IMG/VR virus record: IMGVR_UViG_3300046530_000105
Location: 1 to 41,904 of that record
Strand: one strand, 5' to 3'
DNA length: 41,904 nt
Source: a virus
Each line of letters begins with the position of its first letter. Positions within the stretch are counted from its first letter, which is position 1. The notes under the pieces were generated by a model. It was not told the origin of the DNA. It did no database searches and saw only the letters and a program-made list of their open reading frames with translations. Positions 1-41,491 of the stretch are shown in pieces. Position numbers and translations under genes: made by a program.

Positions 1-48
1 ACCTTGACATGGTGGGGGTCGTTGGTTCGAGTCCAATCGCGCCTACCA
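1..48 (+). tRNA. tRNA-Val(GAC), 3' part (5' half outside the window)
   Basis: The window opens inside the anticodon stem. The loop TTGACAT (4-10) has anticodon GAC at 6-8, followed by stem GGTGG, a short variable loop, a T-arm with TTCGAGT, and the acceptor strand CGCGCCT, discriminator A and encoded CCA ending at 48. The layout matches bacterial tRNA-Val(GAC). The intact gene should begin roughly 30 bases left of the window. The phage used this gene as its attachment site. Confidence 0.9.
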
Positions 49-79
49 AACAAAATCCGCTCTGCTGGGCGGTCTAGAA

Positions 80-107
80 GGGCTCACCGAAAGGTGGGCC
101 CTTTTTT
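80..107 (+). terminator. Rho-independent terminator of the tRNA-Val gene
   Basis: GGGCTCACC and GGTGGGCCC form a 9-bp stem (one G-U pair) around a GAAA loop, followed by six T. The terminator lies inside the attachment repeat, so tRNA termination is preserved on both sides after integration. Confidence 0.88.
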
Positions 108-118
108 GTTGTCTGCGA

Positions 119-11678: not shown

Positions 11679-12419
11679 CTATAGGAGAACCGAGTACCAG
11701 AAGACCTTGCCGATCACGATGATGTCTTTCTGCAGCATGTCTTCGGCGCTGTATTCCTCATCTGGATGCTCGTCGCGGTTGTAGCTGCGCATCCTGATAC
11801 CGCCACCTGGTGCTCGATATAGGGTTTTAACCCGGAGCTGGCCTCCGTGGTTTAGGGCATACATTTTTCCATCAGTTATTGCGGTCGAACCTTGATCTAC
11901 GCCAACGGTGCTCCCATGGGGCAGGACTGGTTCCATGCTGTTCCCGCTCACCGTTACACAAACAGCTTCGCTCGGTTGCACGTTTTGGCGTCGAAGCGTC
12001 TGTTTACCAAAGCGCAACTTCTGCTTATGTGATGGCTCTACGACCGTCTTTCCGCTTCCAGCCGACAGTTCTACTTCCTTGAGGAATGGCACGTATACCT
12101 CATCATCATCCAGCGGTGTGTCATCGTCCCAAACCGAAAATTGGCCTAGGTATTCGGCGTTACTCTCGACGTTAACCGGCTCCGGCTGCATGCCTTTACG
12201 GTCGAGCTGATAACGCTCCAGGCCGAGCTTCATCTCGATGTCCCGAGCGAAGTCCTCCCCGATGTTTTTACTACCAGCAGATGATGGTGCAGTCGAGAGA
12301 CAGCGCGATATGTAATTGGCGCTCTTTCCTAAAGCATCGGCCAGCCTGGCCTGCTTTCCATCAAAGCGCTGTTTCATGAGTGCCCGCAAATTTTCGCGGC
12401 GAATATCTGAAATTTCCAT
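11679..12419 (-). CDS. cI: CI-type phage repressor (XRE HTH + S24 peptidase)
   Basis: 246 residues from the ATG at 12419. An XRE-like helix-turn-helix lies at about 8-45 (RFDGKQARLADALGKSANYISRCLS). The C-terminal half is an S24/LexA-type peptidase with a probable self-cleavage site A120-G121 (LSAGSG), S161 in SGNSMEP and K198 in LRVKTL. RecA-stimulated cleavage after DNA damage would therefore induce the prophage. It should bind the five 15-bp operators on both sides of the gene. In-frame GTG starts upstream overlap the operators and lack a ribosome site, so MEISDI is preferred although its own site is weak. Confidence 0.93.
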   Translation of the reverse strand: MEISDIRRENLRALMKQRFDGKQARLADALGKSANYISRCLSTAPSSAGSKNIGEDFARDIEMKLGLERYQLDRKGMQPEPVNVESNAEYLGQFSVWDDDTPLDDDEVYVPFLKEVELSAGSGKTVVEPSHKQKLRFGKQTLRRQNVQPSEAVCVTVSGNSMEPVLPHGSTVGVDQGSTAITDGKMYALNHGGQLRVKTLYRAPGGGIRMRSYNRDEHPDEEYSAEDMLQKDIIVIGKVFWYSVLL

Positions 12420-12439
12420 CCGCGAATCATCCGTCACCG

Positions 12440-12496
12440 TTACCAATAGGTAAATTCCCTGTGGGTATTGCTTTGAGATTACCTGTGGGTAATAAT
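12440..12496. promoter_or_regulatory. OR-like triple operator and rightward promoter
   Basis: Three 15-bp operators lie between cI and the Cro-like gene: TTACCAATAGGTAAA (12440-12454), TTCCCTGTGGGTATT (12455-12469, directly abutting) and TTACCTGTGGGTAAT (12479-12493). A rightward promoter TTGCTT (12468-12473), 17-bp spacer, AATAAT (12491-12496) is overlapped by the second and third operators. The outermost operator towards cI is placed to control the repressor's own promoter. Confidence 0.82.
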
Positions 12497-12820: not shown

Positions 12821-12836
12821 CTGTGTATTCATACAG
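12821..12836. promoter_or_regulatory. LexA (SOS) box downstream of cro
   Basis: CTGTGTATTCATACAG fits the gamma-proteobacterial LexA consensus CTGT-N8-ACAG, with an AT-rich centre. It lies 68 bp after cro and 86 bp before the next rightward gene. Host LexA could repress an internal promoter of the replication operon. I do not see a convincing -10/-35 pair at the box. Confidence 0.7.
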
Positions 12837-12921: not shown

Positions 12922-13146
12922 ATGACCAATAACGCTCCCGCAGTCAATAGTTCTGGGGATGTCGCGACCATTTGCGACGGTCCTGCAAAGGTGGCTCGAC
13001 ACTTAACATTGAATCAATCCGCTGCGATGAATGCCGCACTCATGATTGTCGGCCAGTACTCGCTCGCGTCCAAATCTAGATTCCGCCGGGAATGCCTCGA
13101 TCACTTGAAGGCCTCCCTGGCTCCTGCCCAGGATGTTTCCGCATGA
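12922..13146 (+). CDS. Small hypothetical protein of the replication operon
   Basis: 74 residues with GAGGTG 5-6 nt before the ATG. The N-terminus is polar (NNAPAVNSSGDVATICDGP). A helical part follows (LNQSAAMNAALMIVGQYSLASKSRFRRECLDHLKASL), with the hydrophobic segment AAMNAALMIVGQY. It lies where lambda has cII, but I see no helix-turn-helix. Its stop overlaps the next start as ATGA. Confidence 0.65.
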   Translation: MTNNAPAVNSSGDVATICDGPAKVARHLTLNQSAAMNAALMIVGQYSLASKSRFRRECLDHLKASLAPAQDVSA

Positions 13147-13853
13147 GCACTATCATTATGAGCCTGTGCTGGCCTTTGCAAGGCATGAGTGGCCCGCAGA
13201 AAGCTGTCCTGATATCCCTGGCAGACAATGCAAACGACGAGGGTGTTTGCTGGCCTTCGGTGGCTCGTATCGCTGAGCGCACATGTCTCGCAGAAAGGAC
13301 TGTTCAGGGCGCTATAAAGTGGCTGGGACAAGCCAGAATTTTGTCTGTCCGTGAACGCATGGGGCGTTCAACGATGTACACCATAACCCCGGCATCCTAC
13401 GCACCCCCGCAAGACATGCACCCCGCATCAGATGCGCTACCACCCCCGCAGCTAACGACACAAACCCCCGCAGCAGATGCACCCAGAACCGTAATAGAAC
13501 CATCAAGTGAACCATCAACCCTCGGTGGTGATGAGTTGCCGCAGAAAATCTCGAAGCCCAGATGCCCATCACAGGAAATCGTCGACCTGTTCAACAAAAC
13601 GCTTCCTGGGCTCCCTCAGGTGGCAATGCTGACCAAGGACCGGGTAACGAAGATATCCGCCCGTTGGAACGACAGCGCGGTTCACCAGGACTTGGGGTTC
13701 TGGGCTGAGTTCTTCGAGCTGGTTGGTTCGAGTTCATTCCTGATGGGGGAAAGTGAAGGCAGGGACGGCGCCAAGCCTTTCCGTGCCACCTTCGATTGGC
13801 TGATCAAACCGAGCAACTTTGTCAAGGTCGTGGAGGGTAATTACCATGCGTGA
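13143..13853 (+). CDS. Phage replication protein with winged-helix domain (O-like)
   Basis: 236 residues. Residues ~10-80, MSGPQKAVLISLADNANDEGVCWPSVARIAERTCLAERTVQGAIKWL, form the HTH_36-type winged helix common in phage replication initiators (motif DEGxCWPSxxxIAxxT). A low-complexity linker rich in Pro, Ser and Thr follows. The C-terminal part, VDLFNKTLPGLPQVAMLTKDR to FRATFDWLIKPSNFVKVVEGNY, matches the usual end of such proteins, which contact the helicase or its loader. The start at 13143 overlaps the preceding stop as ATGA. It should bind the phage origin and recruit the helicase encoded next. Confidence 0.85.
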   Translation: MSTIIMSLCWPLQGMSGPQKAVLISLADNANDEGVCWPSVARIAERTCLAERTVQGAIKWLGQARILSVRERMGRSTMYTITPASYAPPQDMHPASDALPPPQLTTQTPAADAPRTVIEPSSEPSTLGGDELPQKISKPRCPSQEIVDLFNKTLPGLPQVAMLTKDRVTKISARWNDSAVHQDLGFWAEFFELVGSSSFLMGESEGRDGAKPFRATFDWLIKPSNFVKVVEGNYHA

Positions 13854-39126: not shown

Positions 39127-39552
39127 ATGACCGCAACTGAGAAGGATCGCGACATCCTGGCGCGTACGCTGTACGGAGAAGCCAGGGGCGAAGGTTTCGC
39201 CGGCCAAGTAGCCGTGGCCTGCGTCATCCGCAACCGAGTGAACGACGGCAAGGACAAGTCCTGGTGGGGCGAGGGCTACGCCGGCGTCTGCCTGAAGCCA
39301 TACCAGTTCAGCTGCTGGAACAAGAACGACCCCAACTATCCCTACCTGAGCGGGGCCAAGCCGATCCCGCCGAAACAGTTCGCCCAGGCCCAGCGGGCGG
39401 CCGACCTGGTGATCTCCGGCGCTGAGCCCGACATCACCAAGGGCGCCACCCACTACTACGCCACGACCATGCCGAAGGCGCCGGCCTGGGCCAAGGATGC
39501 GACCCAGACCTTCCGCCTCGGCAACCACATCTTCTTCAAGGACGTGCCATGA
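39127..39552 (+). CDS. Endolysin (SleB-type cell wall hydrolase)
   Basis: 141 residues, GGAG upstream. DRDILARTLYGEARGEGFAGQVAVACVIRNRV is the conserved start of the SleB/Hydrolase_2 family, with the catalytic Glu in LYGEARGE (near 18). FSCWNKNDPN and GATHYYATTMPKAPAW are further family motifs. It cleaves peptidoglycan glycan strands. No signal peptide is present, so release depends on the holin encoded 21 kb upstream. The stop overlaps the Rz start. Confidence 0.93.
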   Translation: MTATEKDRDILARTLYGEARGEGFAGQVAVACVIRNRVNDGKDKSWWGEGYAGVCLKPYQFSCWNKNDPNYPYLSGAKPIPPKQFAQAQRAADLVISGAEPDITKGATHYYATTMPKAPAWAKDATQTFRLGNHIFFKDVP

Positions 39553-40064
39553 GCCCCGCCAGTCTGAAGCTGCTGATCGCCGGCATGGCCGTGGCGTTGA
39601 TCCTGGCCATGAGCGCTACGTGGAAGGTGCAGGACTGGCGGTATAGCGGTCAGCTCGCCGATCAGGCCAATGCGCATCTATCCGACCTGGCGAAGATCGG
39701 CAGCGCGGCCGCGGACCAGGTTCAGGCAGAGCAACGCAAGCGTCTGGCCCTGGAACAGCAACTGACCAGCAGTGACCAAACCCACCACCGAGCACTCACC
39801 GATGCCCAACGTAATCAAGATCGCCTGCGCGATCGCCTCGCTACTGCTGATGTCCGGCTGTCAGTCCTCCTCGCCGAGGATCCTGCCAGTTGCAACGCAG
39901 TGCCTCCCGCCGCCGGCGCCGTCGGCGTGGTTCATGGAGCCCGTCGAGCCCAACTTGACCCAGCGCATGCTCAACGAATTATCGCCATCACCGACGAAGG
40001 GGACAGGGGGCTGATCGCGCTGAAGGCGTGCCAGGCGTATGTCAGGGCGCTGAATCAGCGATAG
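39549..40064 (+). CDS. Rz: i-spanin (Rz-like)
   Basis: 171 residues. A single N-terminal membrane anchor (LKLLIAGMAVALILAMSATW, near 6-25) is followed by a long periplasmic coiled coil (YSGQLADQANAHLSDLAKIG, EQRKRLALEQQLTSSDQTHHRALTD). This is the inner-membrane spanin build. The o-spanin gene is embedded in the +1 frame. Together they fuse the inner and outer membranes in the last step of lysis. Confidence 0.9.
   Translation: MSPASLKLLIAGMAVALILAMSATWKVQDWRYSGQLADQANAHLSDLAKIGSAAADQVQAEQRKRLALEQQLTSSDQTHHRALTDAQRNQDRLRDRLATADVRLSVLLAEDPASCNAVPPAAGAVGVVHGARRAQLDPAHAQRIIAITDEGDRGLIALKACQAYVRALNQR
39802..40014 (+). CDS. Rz1: o-spanin lipoprotein (Rz1-like), embedded in Rz
   Basis: 70 residues from the ATG at 39802, entirely inside the Rz gene in another frame. 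The signal MPNVIKIACAIASLLLMSGC ends in lipobox LMSGC with C20, and the mature part is short and proline-rich (CLPPPAPSAWFMEPVEPNLT), as in Rz1. A start ten codons earlier is possible, but this one gives a normal-length signal. Confidence 0.9.
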   Translation: MPNVIKIACAIASLLLMSGCQSSSPRILPVATQCLPPPAPSAWFMEPVEPNLTQRMLNELSPSPTKGTGG

Positions 40065-40734
40065 GGCGGATCAGTTCAGGGCCCTGATTGCGCACGTTGC
40101 CGACGGCGCGGTCCACCTTGAACCACTCGAAGACCTCCGCCGGCTCACCCTGCTGCAGGACTATTTGCTCAGCCCGCTCCTTGGGCGTGGCTGGGTCCAG
40201 CCATTCCCGGGCAAGCTCAGGCGTCAGCACCACGGGCCGTCGGTCGTGGATGTCTATCATGCCGCCCTCGCTGTCGGCGGTGATGATGACGAAGCCGTCG
40301 TGCTGGCCGGGCTCGTGGCCACCGGTTGGGAATTGGCCTATGGCGGCGCAGAATATCGGCGCCTGGTCCCGCCGGCGGATCAGGTAGGGCTGCTTCTTCG
40401 GTCCGGCCTCATCGACCCACTCAAACCAGTTGTTGATCGGAGTGATGGCGCGGTTCGGCCAGATCGACCGGTAGAAGGGGCCGTGGGCGACTTTCTCGAC
40501 CCGGGCATTGATTGGTGCTGCCCGGTCTTTGGCCCAGGCCGGCCGCCAGCCCCAGGACACCATGTCGGCGTGCAGAACGTCGTCCTCCTGGTGAAAGAGG
40601 GCGAGCTGCTGCGACGGCGCACCGTTGTACCTCCCCAGCGGCATGTCTCCGGCGGAATTGACCAAGGCGTTTGGCATGCTCAAGGCCGCCACGAAGTCGT
40701 GAATGCCCGTGTATTGCGAGAGTCGCCCGCACAT
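40042..40734 (-). CDS. SRAP-type protein (YedK/HMCES family)
   Basis: 230 residues from the ATG at 40734 (AGGAG 8 nt upstream). The family residues are complete: catalytic C2 in MCGR, N76 in INARVE, E105 in WFEW and H163 in DIHDRRP. SRAP proteins form a thiazolidine cross-link through Cys2 to abasic sites in single-stranded DNA and so shield them. The gene is the second of a leftward pair behind a LexA box, so it should be induced by DNA damage, as the prophage itself is. The last 23 bp overlap the end of Rz, tail to tail. Confidence 0.93.
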   Translation of the reverse strand: MCGRLSQYTGIHDFVAALSMPNALVNSAGDMPLGRYNGAPSQQLALFHQEDDVLHADMVSWGWRPAWAKDRAAPINARVEKVAHGPFYRSIWPNRAITPINNWFEWVDEAGPKKQPYLIRRRDQAPIFCAAIGQFPTGGHEPGQHDGFVIITADSEGGMIDIHDRRPVVLTPELAREWLDPATPKERAEQIVLQQGEPAEVFEWFKVDRAVGNVRNQGPELIRPIADSAP

Positions 40735-40751
40735 GACGCCTGCTCCTGTAG

Positions 40752-41132
40752 TCACCTTGGCTGGGTGCTCGTGAGTATGCTCTCTGGAAGCCTCTCACCC
40801 TCGCGAACCTTGAGCTGCCGGTACAGCTCGGCGACCAGCTGGTTATGCGCCATTTGATCGCCGTTCGATTTATTCATCAGTTCGACATATCGAAGATGCT
40901 CGGAATTCCACGCCCATTTCGCCTTCTCTAGCTCAGCCCGAAGCCTGGCGCACTCCTTAGCCTCGGTCGCGTGCATTTCCACCAGGCCAAAAATGTCCTG
41001 GCGCGCCTTACGTAACTGGGTGGTCAGTTCCTGCACCTCGTTCTCCAGCATTCGACAGGATTGTCTGTACATCTCCAGCGGTGTGGGGCAGCCAAGCCAA
41101 TCGCTGGTGTCTTCAATTTCAAACGGGTCCAT
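40752..41132 (-). CDS. Coiled-coil protein in an SOS-regulated pair with SRAP
   Basis: 126 residues from the ATG at 41132, which has AAGG 8 nt upstream; another ATG two codons earlier is too close to that site. After a short acidic start (MDPFEIEDTSDWLGCP), most of the protein is heptad helix (LENEVQELTTQLRKARQDIFGLVEMHATEAKECARLRAELEKAKW, span about 28-75). No enzyme motif is visible. A LexA box lies 19 bp upstream of the start, and SRAP follows after 17 bp. The shared control suggests a joint DNA-damage function. Confidence 0.75.
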   Translation of the reverse strand: MDPFEIEDTSDWLGCPTPLEMYRQSCRMLENEVQELTTQLRKARQDIFGLVEMHATEAKECARLRAELEKAKWAWNSEHLRYVELMNKSNGDQMAHNQLVAELYRQLKVREGERLPESILTSTQPR

Positions 41133-41151
41133 GACCATGCCTTGCTTTGTA

Positions 41152-41167
41152 CTGTTTGGATATACAG
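41152..41167. promoter_or_regulatory. LexA (SOS) box upstream of the coiled-coil/SRAP pair
   Basis: CTGTTTGGATATACAG matches CTGT-N8-ACAG, the LexA consensus of gamma-proteobacteria, and lies 19 bp before the first leftward start codon, where LexA would block transcription. The flanking A/T bases (TACTG...CAGTAA) extend the palindrome. Confidence 0.82.
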
Positions 41168-41380
41168 TAATCGAGGCGACTCCATAGGGGCGATGATGAG
41201 ACGACGAGCTGTAGGGTTTTGGGGGATGATCGGTCGGCAGGACGCCGGGGAGGGAGGTACCACTGTAGGAATATACAACGCTAAGTTATTGATTCTTATA
41301 GGATGGAAACGCTGTTTTTTCTAACGCTACGTGCAGGTGTTTTCCTTTAATTTTCATAGAGTTACACTCGATTCACGGTC
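41168..41380. other. Non-coding phage arm beside attR
   Basis: About 210 bp without a credible gene. AACGCT occurs three times in the same orientation (41277-41282, 41308-41313, 41323-41328), and the last 100 bp are AT-rich. Such short repeats beside the core may be integrase or Xis arm sites on the other attP arm; they differ from the TTTGCAAAACT repeats near attL. Confidence 0.45.
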
Positions 41381-41491
41381 ACCTTGACATGGTGGGGGTC
41401 GTTGGTTCGAGTCCAATCGCGCCTACCAAACAAAATCCGCTCTGCTGGGCGGTCTAGAAGGGCTCACCGAAAGGTGGGCCCTTTTTTGTTG
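41381..41491. other. attR: right copy of the attachment repeat with a tRNA remnant
   Basis: Identical to 1-111. It contains the tRNA-Val 3' half (41381-41428), but the sequence before it does not form the D-arm or 5' acceptor strand, so it is no functional tRNA. The crossover therefore lies within the repeat from the anticodon stem onward. Confidence 0.93.
41460..41487 (+). terminator. Second copy of the tRNA terminator
   Basis: Same 9-bp stem, GAAA loop and T6 as at 80-107. In attR it no longer serves the tRNA but could end transcripts leaving the prophage rightward. Confidence 0.85.

Follow-up and report, generated by a model that had tools for sequence, protein, structure and literature searches.

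A predicted SOS-controlled unit of a coiled-coil gene and an SRAP gene at the right end of a Pseudomonas prophage

SRAP proteins link covalently to abasic sites in single-stranded DNA and thereby shield them. Why a prophage should carry such a gene just inside its end, behind a LexA-type box and a gene for a small coiled-coil protein, and whether the two proteins belong together, are the questions raised by the locus described here. The unit bears on why prophages so often carry abasic-site protection, and it offers a direct way to ask what role temperate phages have in DNA damage beyond the cutting of their own repressor.

Position and layout of the unit

The window, by which we mean the whole stretch of DNA that was analysed (41,904 bases), contains two exact direct repeats of 111 bp, at 1-111 and 41381-41491, and the segment from 41381 to the end of the window, including a host gene past attR, matches a Pseudomonas genome at 96% identity. 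Because of these att repeats and the host DNA beyond attR, the window holds an apparently whole Pseudomonas prophage with the two-gene unit just inside its right end, which is where an earlier note on this DNA had placed it. The features referred to in the text are the following:

1..111, plus strand: attL repeat, identical to attR
11679..12455, minus strand: CI-type repressor with an S24 self-cleavage domain (Pfam Peptidase_S24, E=5.7e-24; SAGSG and SGNSMEP motifs)
39549..40064, plus strand: Rz-like spanin gene, convergent with SRAP and the usual neighbour of the unit
40042..40734, minus strand: SRAP gene (YedK/HMCES type), 230 aa (Pfam PF02586, E=2e-44; Cys2/Asn76/Glu105/His163)
40752..41132, minus strand: coiled-coil gene, 126 aa, from a family of Pseudomonas phages; an acidic arm at the N-terminus, with DT.DWLG.PT, is followed by a single long helix
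41152..41167, minus strand: LexA-type operator CTGTATATCCAAACAG (extended TACTGTATATCCAAACAGTA), a palindrome conserved ahead of coiled-coil genes
41168..41208, minus strand: conserved upstream promoter block (TCGTCG ... CCTCGATTA), common to two unrelated first-gene families
41381..41491, plus strand: attR repeat, with the same sequence as attL

The minus strand thus reads, in order, upstream block, LexA-type palindrome, coiled-coil gene and SRAP gene, with a 17-bp gap that includes a ribosome-binding site between the two genes. The 3' ends of the SRAP and Rz genes overlap by 23 bp, and lysis genes are located opposite and downstream of the unit in most of the loci compared. The corresponding unit in the genomes of free phages adjoins int, usually on the same strand and with int reading towards the unit, so that after excision transcription from the int side could also reach the unit and lytic expression would be possible as well. 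A search of a plasmid collection for the unit gave no match, and the Rfam matches at the right end, positioned on or beside the att repeat, were all below the gathering scores. A tRNA-Pro called by ARAGORN at 13656-13752, inside the ORF 13092-13853, is probably a false call.

The LexA-type box and the upstream block

The box differs at 3 positions from CTGTATATATATACAG and is separated by 19 bp from the ATG at 41132, in agreement with the near-ideal LexA box that the earlier note had described at this distance from the leftward unit. Two sites with at most 5 mismatches to the palindrome are present in the window, at 41152-41167 and 12821-12836, as compared to an expectation per 41.9 kb of 0.00 sites at no more than 3 mismatches and 0.38 sites at no more than 5 under a first-order Markov model of the window. 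The second palindrome, CTGTGTATTCATACAG, is flanked by a cro-like gene (YdaS-like) and by an ORF of 74 aa, and a hairpin precedes this ORF.

Relatives were drawn from viral contigs, named Pseudomonas genomes and further genomes of the same genus group. In total, 136 distinct coiled-coil genes were collected, of which the 132 with at least 120 bp of upstream sequence entered the box count. The box was present before 131 of these, at -33 to -38 relative to the start; the counts refer to related sequences and not to independent events, but silent sites are nevertheless near saturation among the genes (median dS about 1.5, dN/dS about 0.1). The rate expected from elsewhere in the same loci is about 0.002 per 60 bp, so that conservation of the box is far above chance, and the sole gene counted as boxless keeps a damaged version, CTGTGCATCCAAACCG. 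The host lexA1 promoters contain CTGTATATAATCCCAG/CTGTATAAAAAGACAG, which have the same grammar as the unit's box, and the motif was absent from the host lexA2 loci inspected. The box has the features of a host LexA regulon site, namely CTG-N10-CAG in the promoter region, an occurrence above chance and conservation. The comparative evidence, i.e., the conserved box and the host lexA1 match, supports the earlier suggestion that the unit is under host LexA/SOS control.

Ahead of the box, a block of ~55 bp is shared by the coiled-coil genes and by a second, unrelated family of first genes encoding a 241-aa protein, and reads roughly TCGTCGCC...CCCTCGCC...CGCCTCGATTA, then box. TCGTCG is found in the upstream stretch of 103 of the 128 distinct sequences in the coiled-coil family and in 57 of 57 in the 241-aa family (expected 0.02). 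A simple scan of the unit's strand for a sigma-70 promoter found none.

The two encoded proteins

The earlier note had described the SRAP protein as complete, and this was confirmed by the Pfam match, which scores 152 bits against a cut-off of 27.1 and spans the full profile (1-214 of 214). Among solved structures the closest is YedK, matched over the whole length with an E-value of about 1e-53. As in E. coli YedK and human HMCES, the active-site residues C2, N76, E105 and H163 and both conserved Arg residues are present in the window protein; among 91 phage relatives the active-site residues are conserved, with the His found in 89. The gene most likely starts at the ATG at 40734 and not at the GTG at 40755, which would make the catalytic Cys residue 2. 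Unlike YedK and HMCES, this SRAP protein is phage-borne and encoded by the second gene of an operon with a LexA box. It is predicted to have SRAP activity and, by analogy with the known chemistry of the family, may protect replicating phage DNA.

The SRAP superfamily was named in a 2013 study, in which it was linked to SOS and noted in temperate phages (PMC3765255). YedK has been termed an abasic site sensor, and deletion of host yedK left T4 plaque counts unchanged under a glycosylase defence (PMC11078745), so that any advantage of SRAP for a phage is as yet hypothetical. Three of the collected loci contain a divergent 150-aa SRAP relative after the coiled-coil gene (Pfam E=0.006, below the cut-off), in which Cys2 and IHDR-P are kept and the NAR and WFEW motifs are seemingly lost, and which is possibly catalytically altered. 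In four related loci, the coiled-coil gene and the box are intact and the adjoining SRAP stretch is diverged or broken. Gifsy-2 (NC_010393) has an SRAP gene near its end that is unannotated in that record.

For the coiled-coil protein, the most likely start is at 41132 rather than 41138, since the family start is M-D-P. The protein has no above-cut-off match in Pfam, PHROGs, NCBIfam or PADLOC, including the PADLOC defence models, and a search of solved structures with the family profile recovered generic coiled coils only. The comparison defines a phage protein family that is absent from the four libraries searched and whose control by SOS is predicted with high confidence. Judging from the alignments, the protein is selected for its sequence: dN/dS is about 0.1 across the N-terminal 55 codons, with a more variable tail, and T9, W12, L13, P16, E30 and L36 do not vary among 66 sequences. 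The structure model of the monomer (mean pLDDT 88.8) consists of a short helix at 10-13 and a helix at 18-114, with conserved heptad-spaced hydrophobic residues at positions 33, 36, 40, 43, 47 and 50, and suggests that coiled-coil oligomers may form. The N-terminal arm is strongly acidic, with a charge of -5 to -7. The protein probably serves as an adaptor that acts on a partner in the host; that this would be a replication, repair or division protein is a guess.

Of 299 genomes sampled from one Pseudomonas genus group, 89 gave relatives of the coiled-coil protein; the weakest of these matches may be generic coiled coils. The family is confined to Pseudomonas in the samples searched, and a class-level sample, searched for wider spread, returned nothing beyond the reference genome and weak noise from coiled coils.

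Exchangeable first genes and competing explanations

The earlier note had treated the two genes as a pair. Their linkage in related phages is real: coiled-coil searches recovered 89 viral loci, 31 of them with SRAP next to the coiled-coil gene, and 25 genome loci, 7 of them with this arrangement. We rely on these fractions because the full set, in which the pair occurs in 54 of 136 distinct loci, includes loci that were found through SRAP. Co-occurrence elsewhere thus held up, but the linkage is only partial and the two genes are therefore not an obligate pair. The coiled-coil gene is alone in about half of the loci, in many of which it ends 9-25 bp from Rz, and it therefore presumably works without SRAP.

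When the search was based on SRAP, the box was present in 66 of the 70 loci with enough upstream sequence, but the coiled-coil gene was placed first in only 41. In most of the remaining SRAP loci, the first gene encodes the 241-aa protein, which ends in CxxC-x9-CxxC. This Pseudomonas-phage family with its C-terminal four-cysteine knuckle has no Pfam match, and a fold search with a model of the protein (pLDDT 77) gave nothing significant. A LexA-type box precedes 73 of 74 copies; SRAP is the next gene in 40 of 79 loci, and the 241-aa gene never occurs in the same locus as the coiled-coil gene. Among the named phages, P. aeruginosa F116, Presto and Fyn8 have a segment (p69-p68-SRAP in F116) that, like the unit, consists of a box, a first gene and SRAP and adjoins int; the first gene in these phages resembles the 241-aa family by eye, whereas the unit studied here has the coiled-coil family. 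In Erwinia phage 59, a box precedes SRAP by 653 bp, and neither first-gene family was identified there. SRAP occurs without a nearby box in TC7, pAN, PHB10 and Smp131, and the idea that every phage SRAP gene is under SOS control was rejected since several such genes have no box nearby.

In these comparisons, the constant core is the box plus the coiled-coil gene, with SRAP as an optional second gene. Both first-gene families keep the box and the block, and most of the free-phage SRAP genes checked that are not preceded by such a first gene are boxless, which argues that the first gene brings the SOS promoter with it. The simplest reading is a single promoter cassette with exchangeable genes behind it.

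We consider it fairly probable that the unit as a whole is a LexA-repressed SOS operon, in which SRAP shields DNA and the first protein is an independent effector. Host LexA, which is LexA1 in this genus, would occupy the box immediately ahead of the first gene in the lysogen, and DNA damage would open the unit through LexA cleavage whether or not the phage repressor is cleaved. SRAP would then cap abasic sites in single-stranded DNA, covalently through Cys2, by which replicating phage DNA or prophage and host DNA would be spared from breaking. The first protein, a predicted coiled-coil rod, would dock on a host target with its invariant acidic DT-DWLG-PT arm and act as an independent effector at the time of SOS rather than as a dedicated partner of SRAP. 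A broader proposal is put forward tentatively: Pseudomonas temperate phages may share a portable SOS cassette, composed of the ~55-bp block and the LexA box, that carries swapped unrelated effectors, and the coiled-coil family may represent a new class of phage effectors, timed by SOS and directed at the host damage response or at replication before lysis.

A different purpose for the same regulation is that of a repair moron, with SRAP and the coiled-coil protein aiding host survival under mild damage while the prophage stays repressed. LexA control would uncouple the unit from the phage repressor, and the slot at the att end is moron-like with swappable contents, but the unit adjoins int, which reads towards it in free phages, and expression in the lytic phase is possible as well, so that this role appears somewhat doubtful. 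That the first gene product and SRAP form one complex at abasic sites would fit their adjacency on the same strand, the short gap with its ribosome-binding site and the pairing in the partly SRAP-drawn set of loci, but is improbable given that most loci from the coiled-coil searches have no SRAP alongside and that an unrelated first gene can likewise be paired with SRAP. It is very improbable that the box is an operator for the phage's own repressor instead of host LexA. Operators for CI and LexA can look alike, but the same box is found with different first genes and with repressors that vary in length and score, it matches the boxes of host lexA promoters, and the sole further site in the window is located downstream of the cro-like gene and not in the cI-cro gap.

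The first gene could also be a LexA-controlled antirepressor such as Tum of 186 or GfoA/GftA of Gifsy, which would bind the phage repressor and lead to induction. There is precedent in the Gifsy dinI-antirepressor operon and 186 tum, which likewise have a LexA-type box and a small leading gene, in those cases for an antirepressor protein, outside the immunity region (PMC3121763); the unit carries SRAP where the Gifsy operon has dinI/irsA, and its first gene has no family match in Pfam, PHROGs or NCBIfam. A different prophage gene controlled by LexA1/LexA2, PP_3901 of P. putida KT2440, is required for induction of several P. putida prophages (PMC4595014). However, the Gifsy antirepressors serve uncleaved repressors, whereas an S24-peptidase protein, presumably a self-cleaving CI-type repressor, is encoded in 33 of 34 long coiled-coil records, the window included. 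An antirepressor role is for this reason disfavoured and seems quite improbable, and we retain the LexA-repressed operon with an independent effector as the preferred explanation.

PP_3901 was itself considered as a candidate for the coiled-coil gene, being a Pseudomonas prophage gene with a LexA-type box, and was rejected: the locus, fetched via a published promoter primer, encodes a DUF1654 protein that is unrelated to the coiled-coil protein, and the gene is located elsewhere. PF07867 (DUF1654) had no match in the coiled-coil protein or in the window. Of 34 phage records with the coiled-coil gene, 19 also contain DUF1654.
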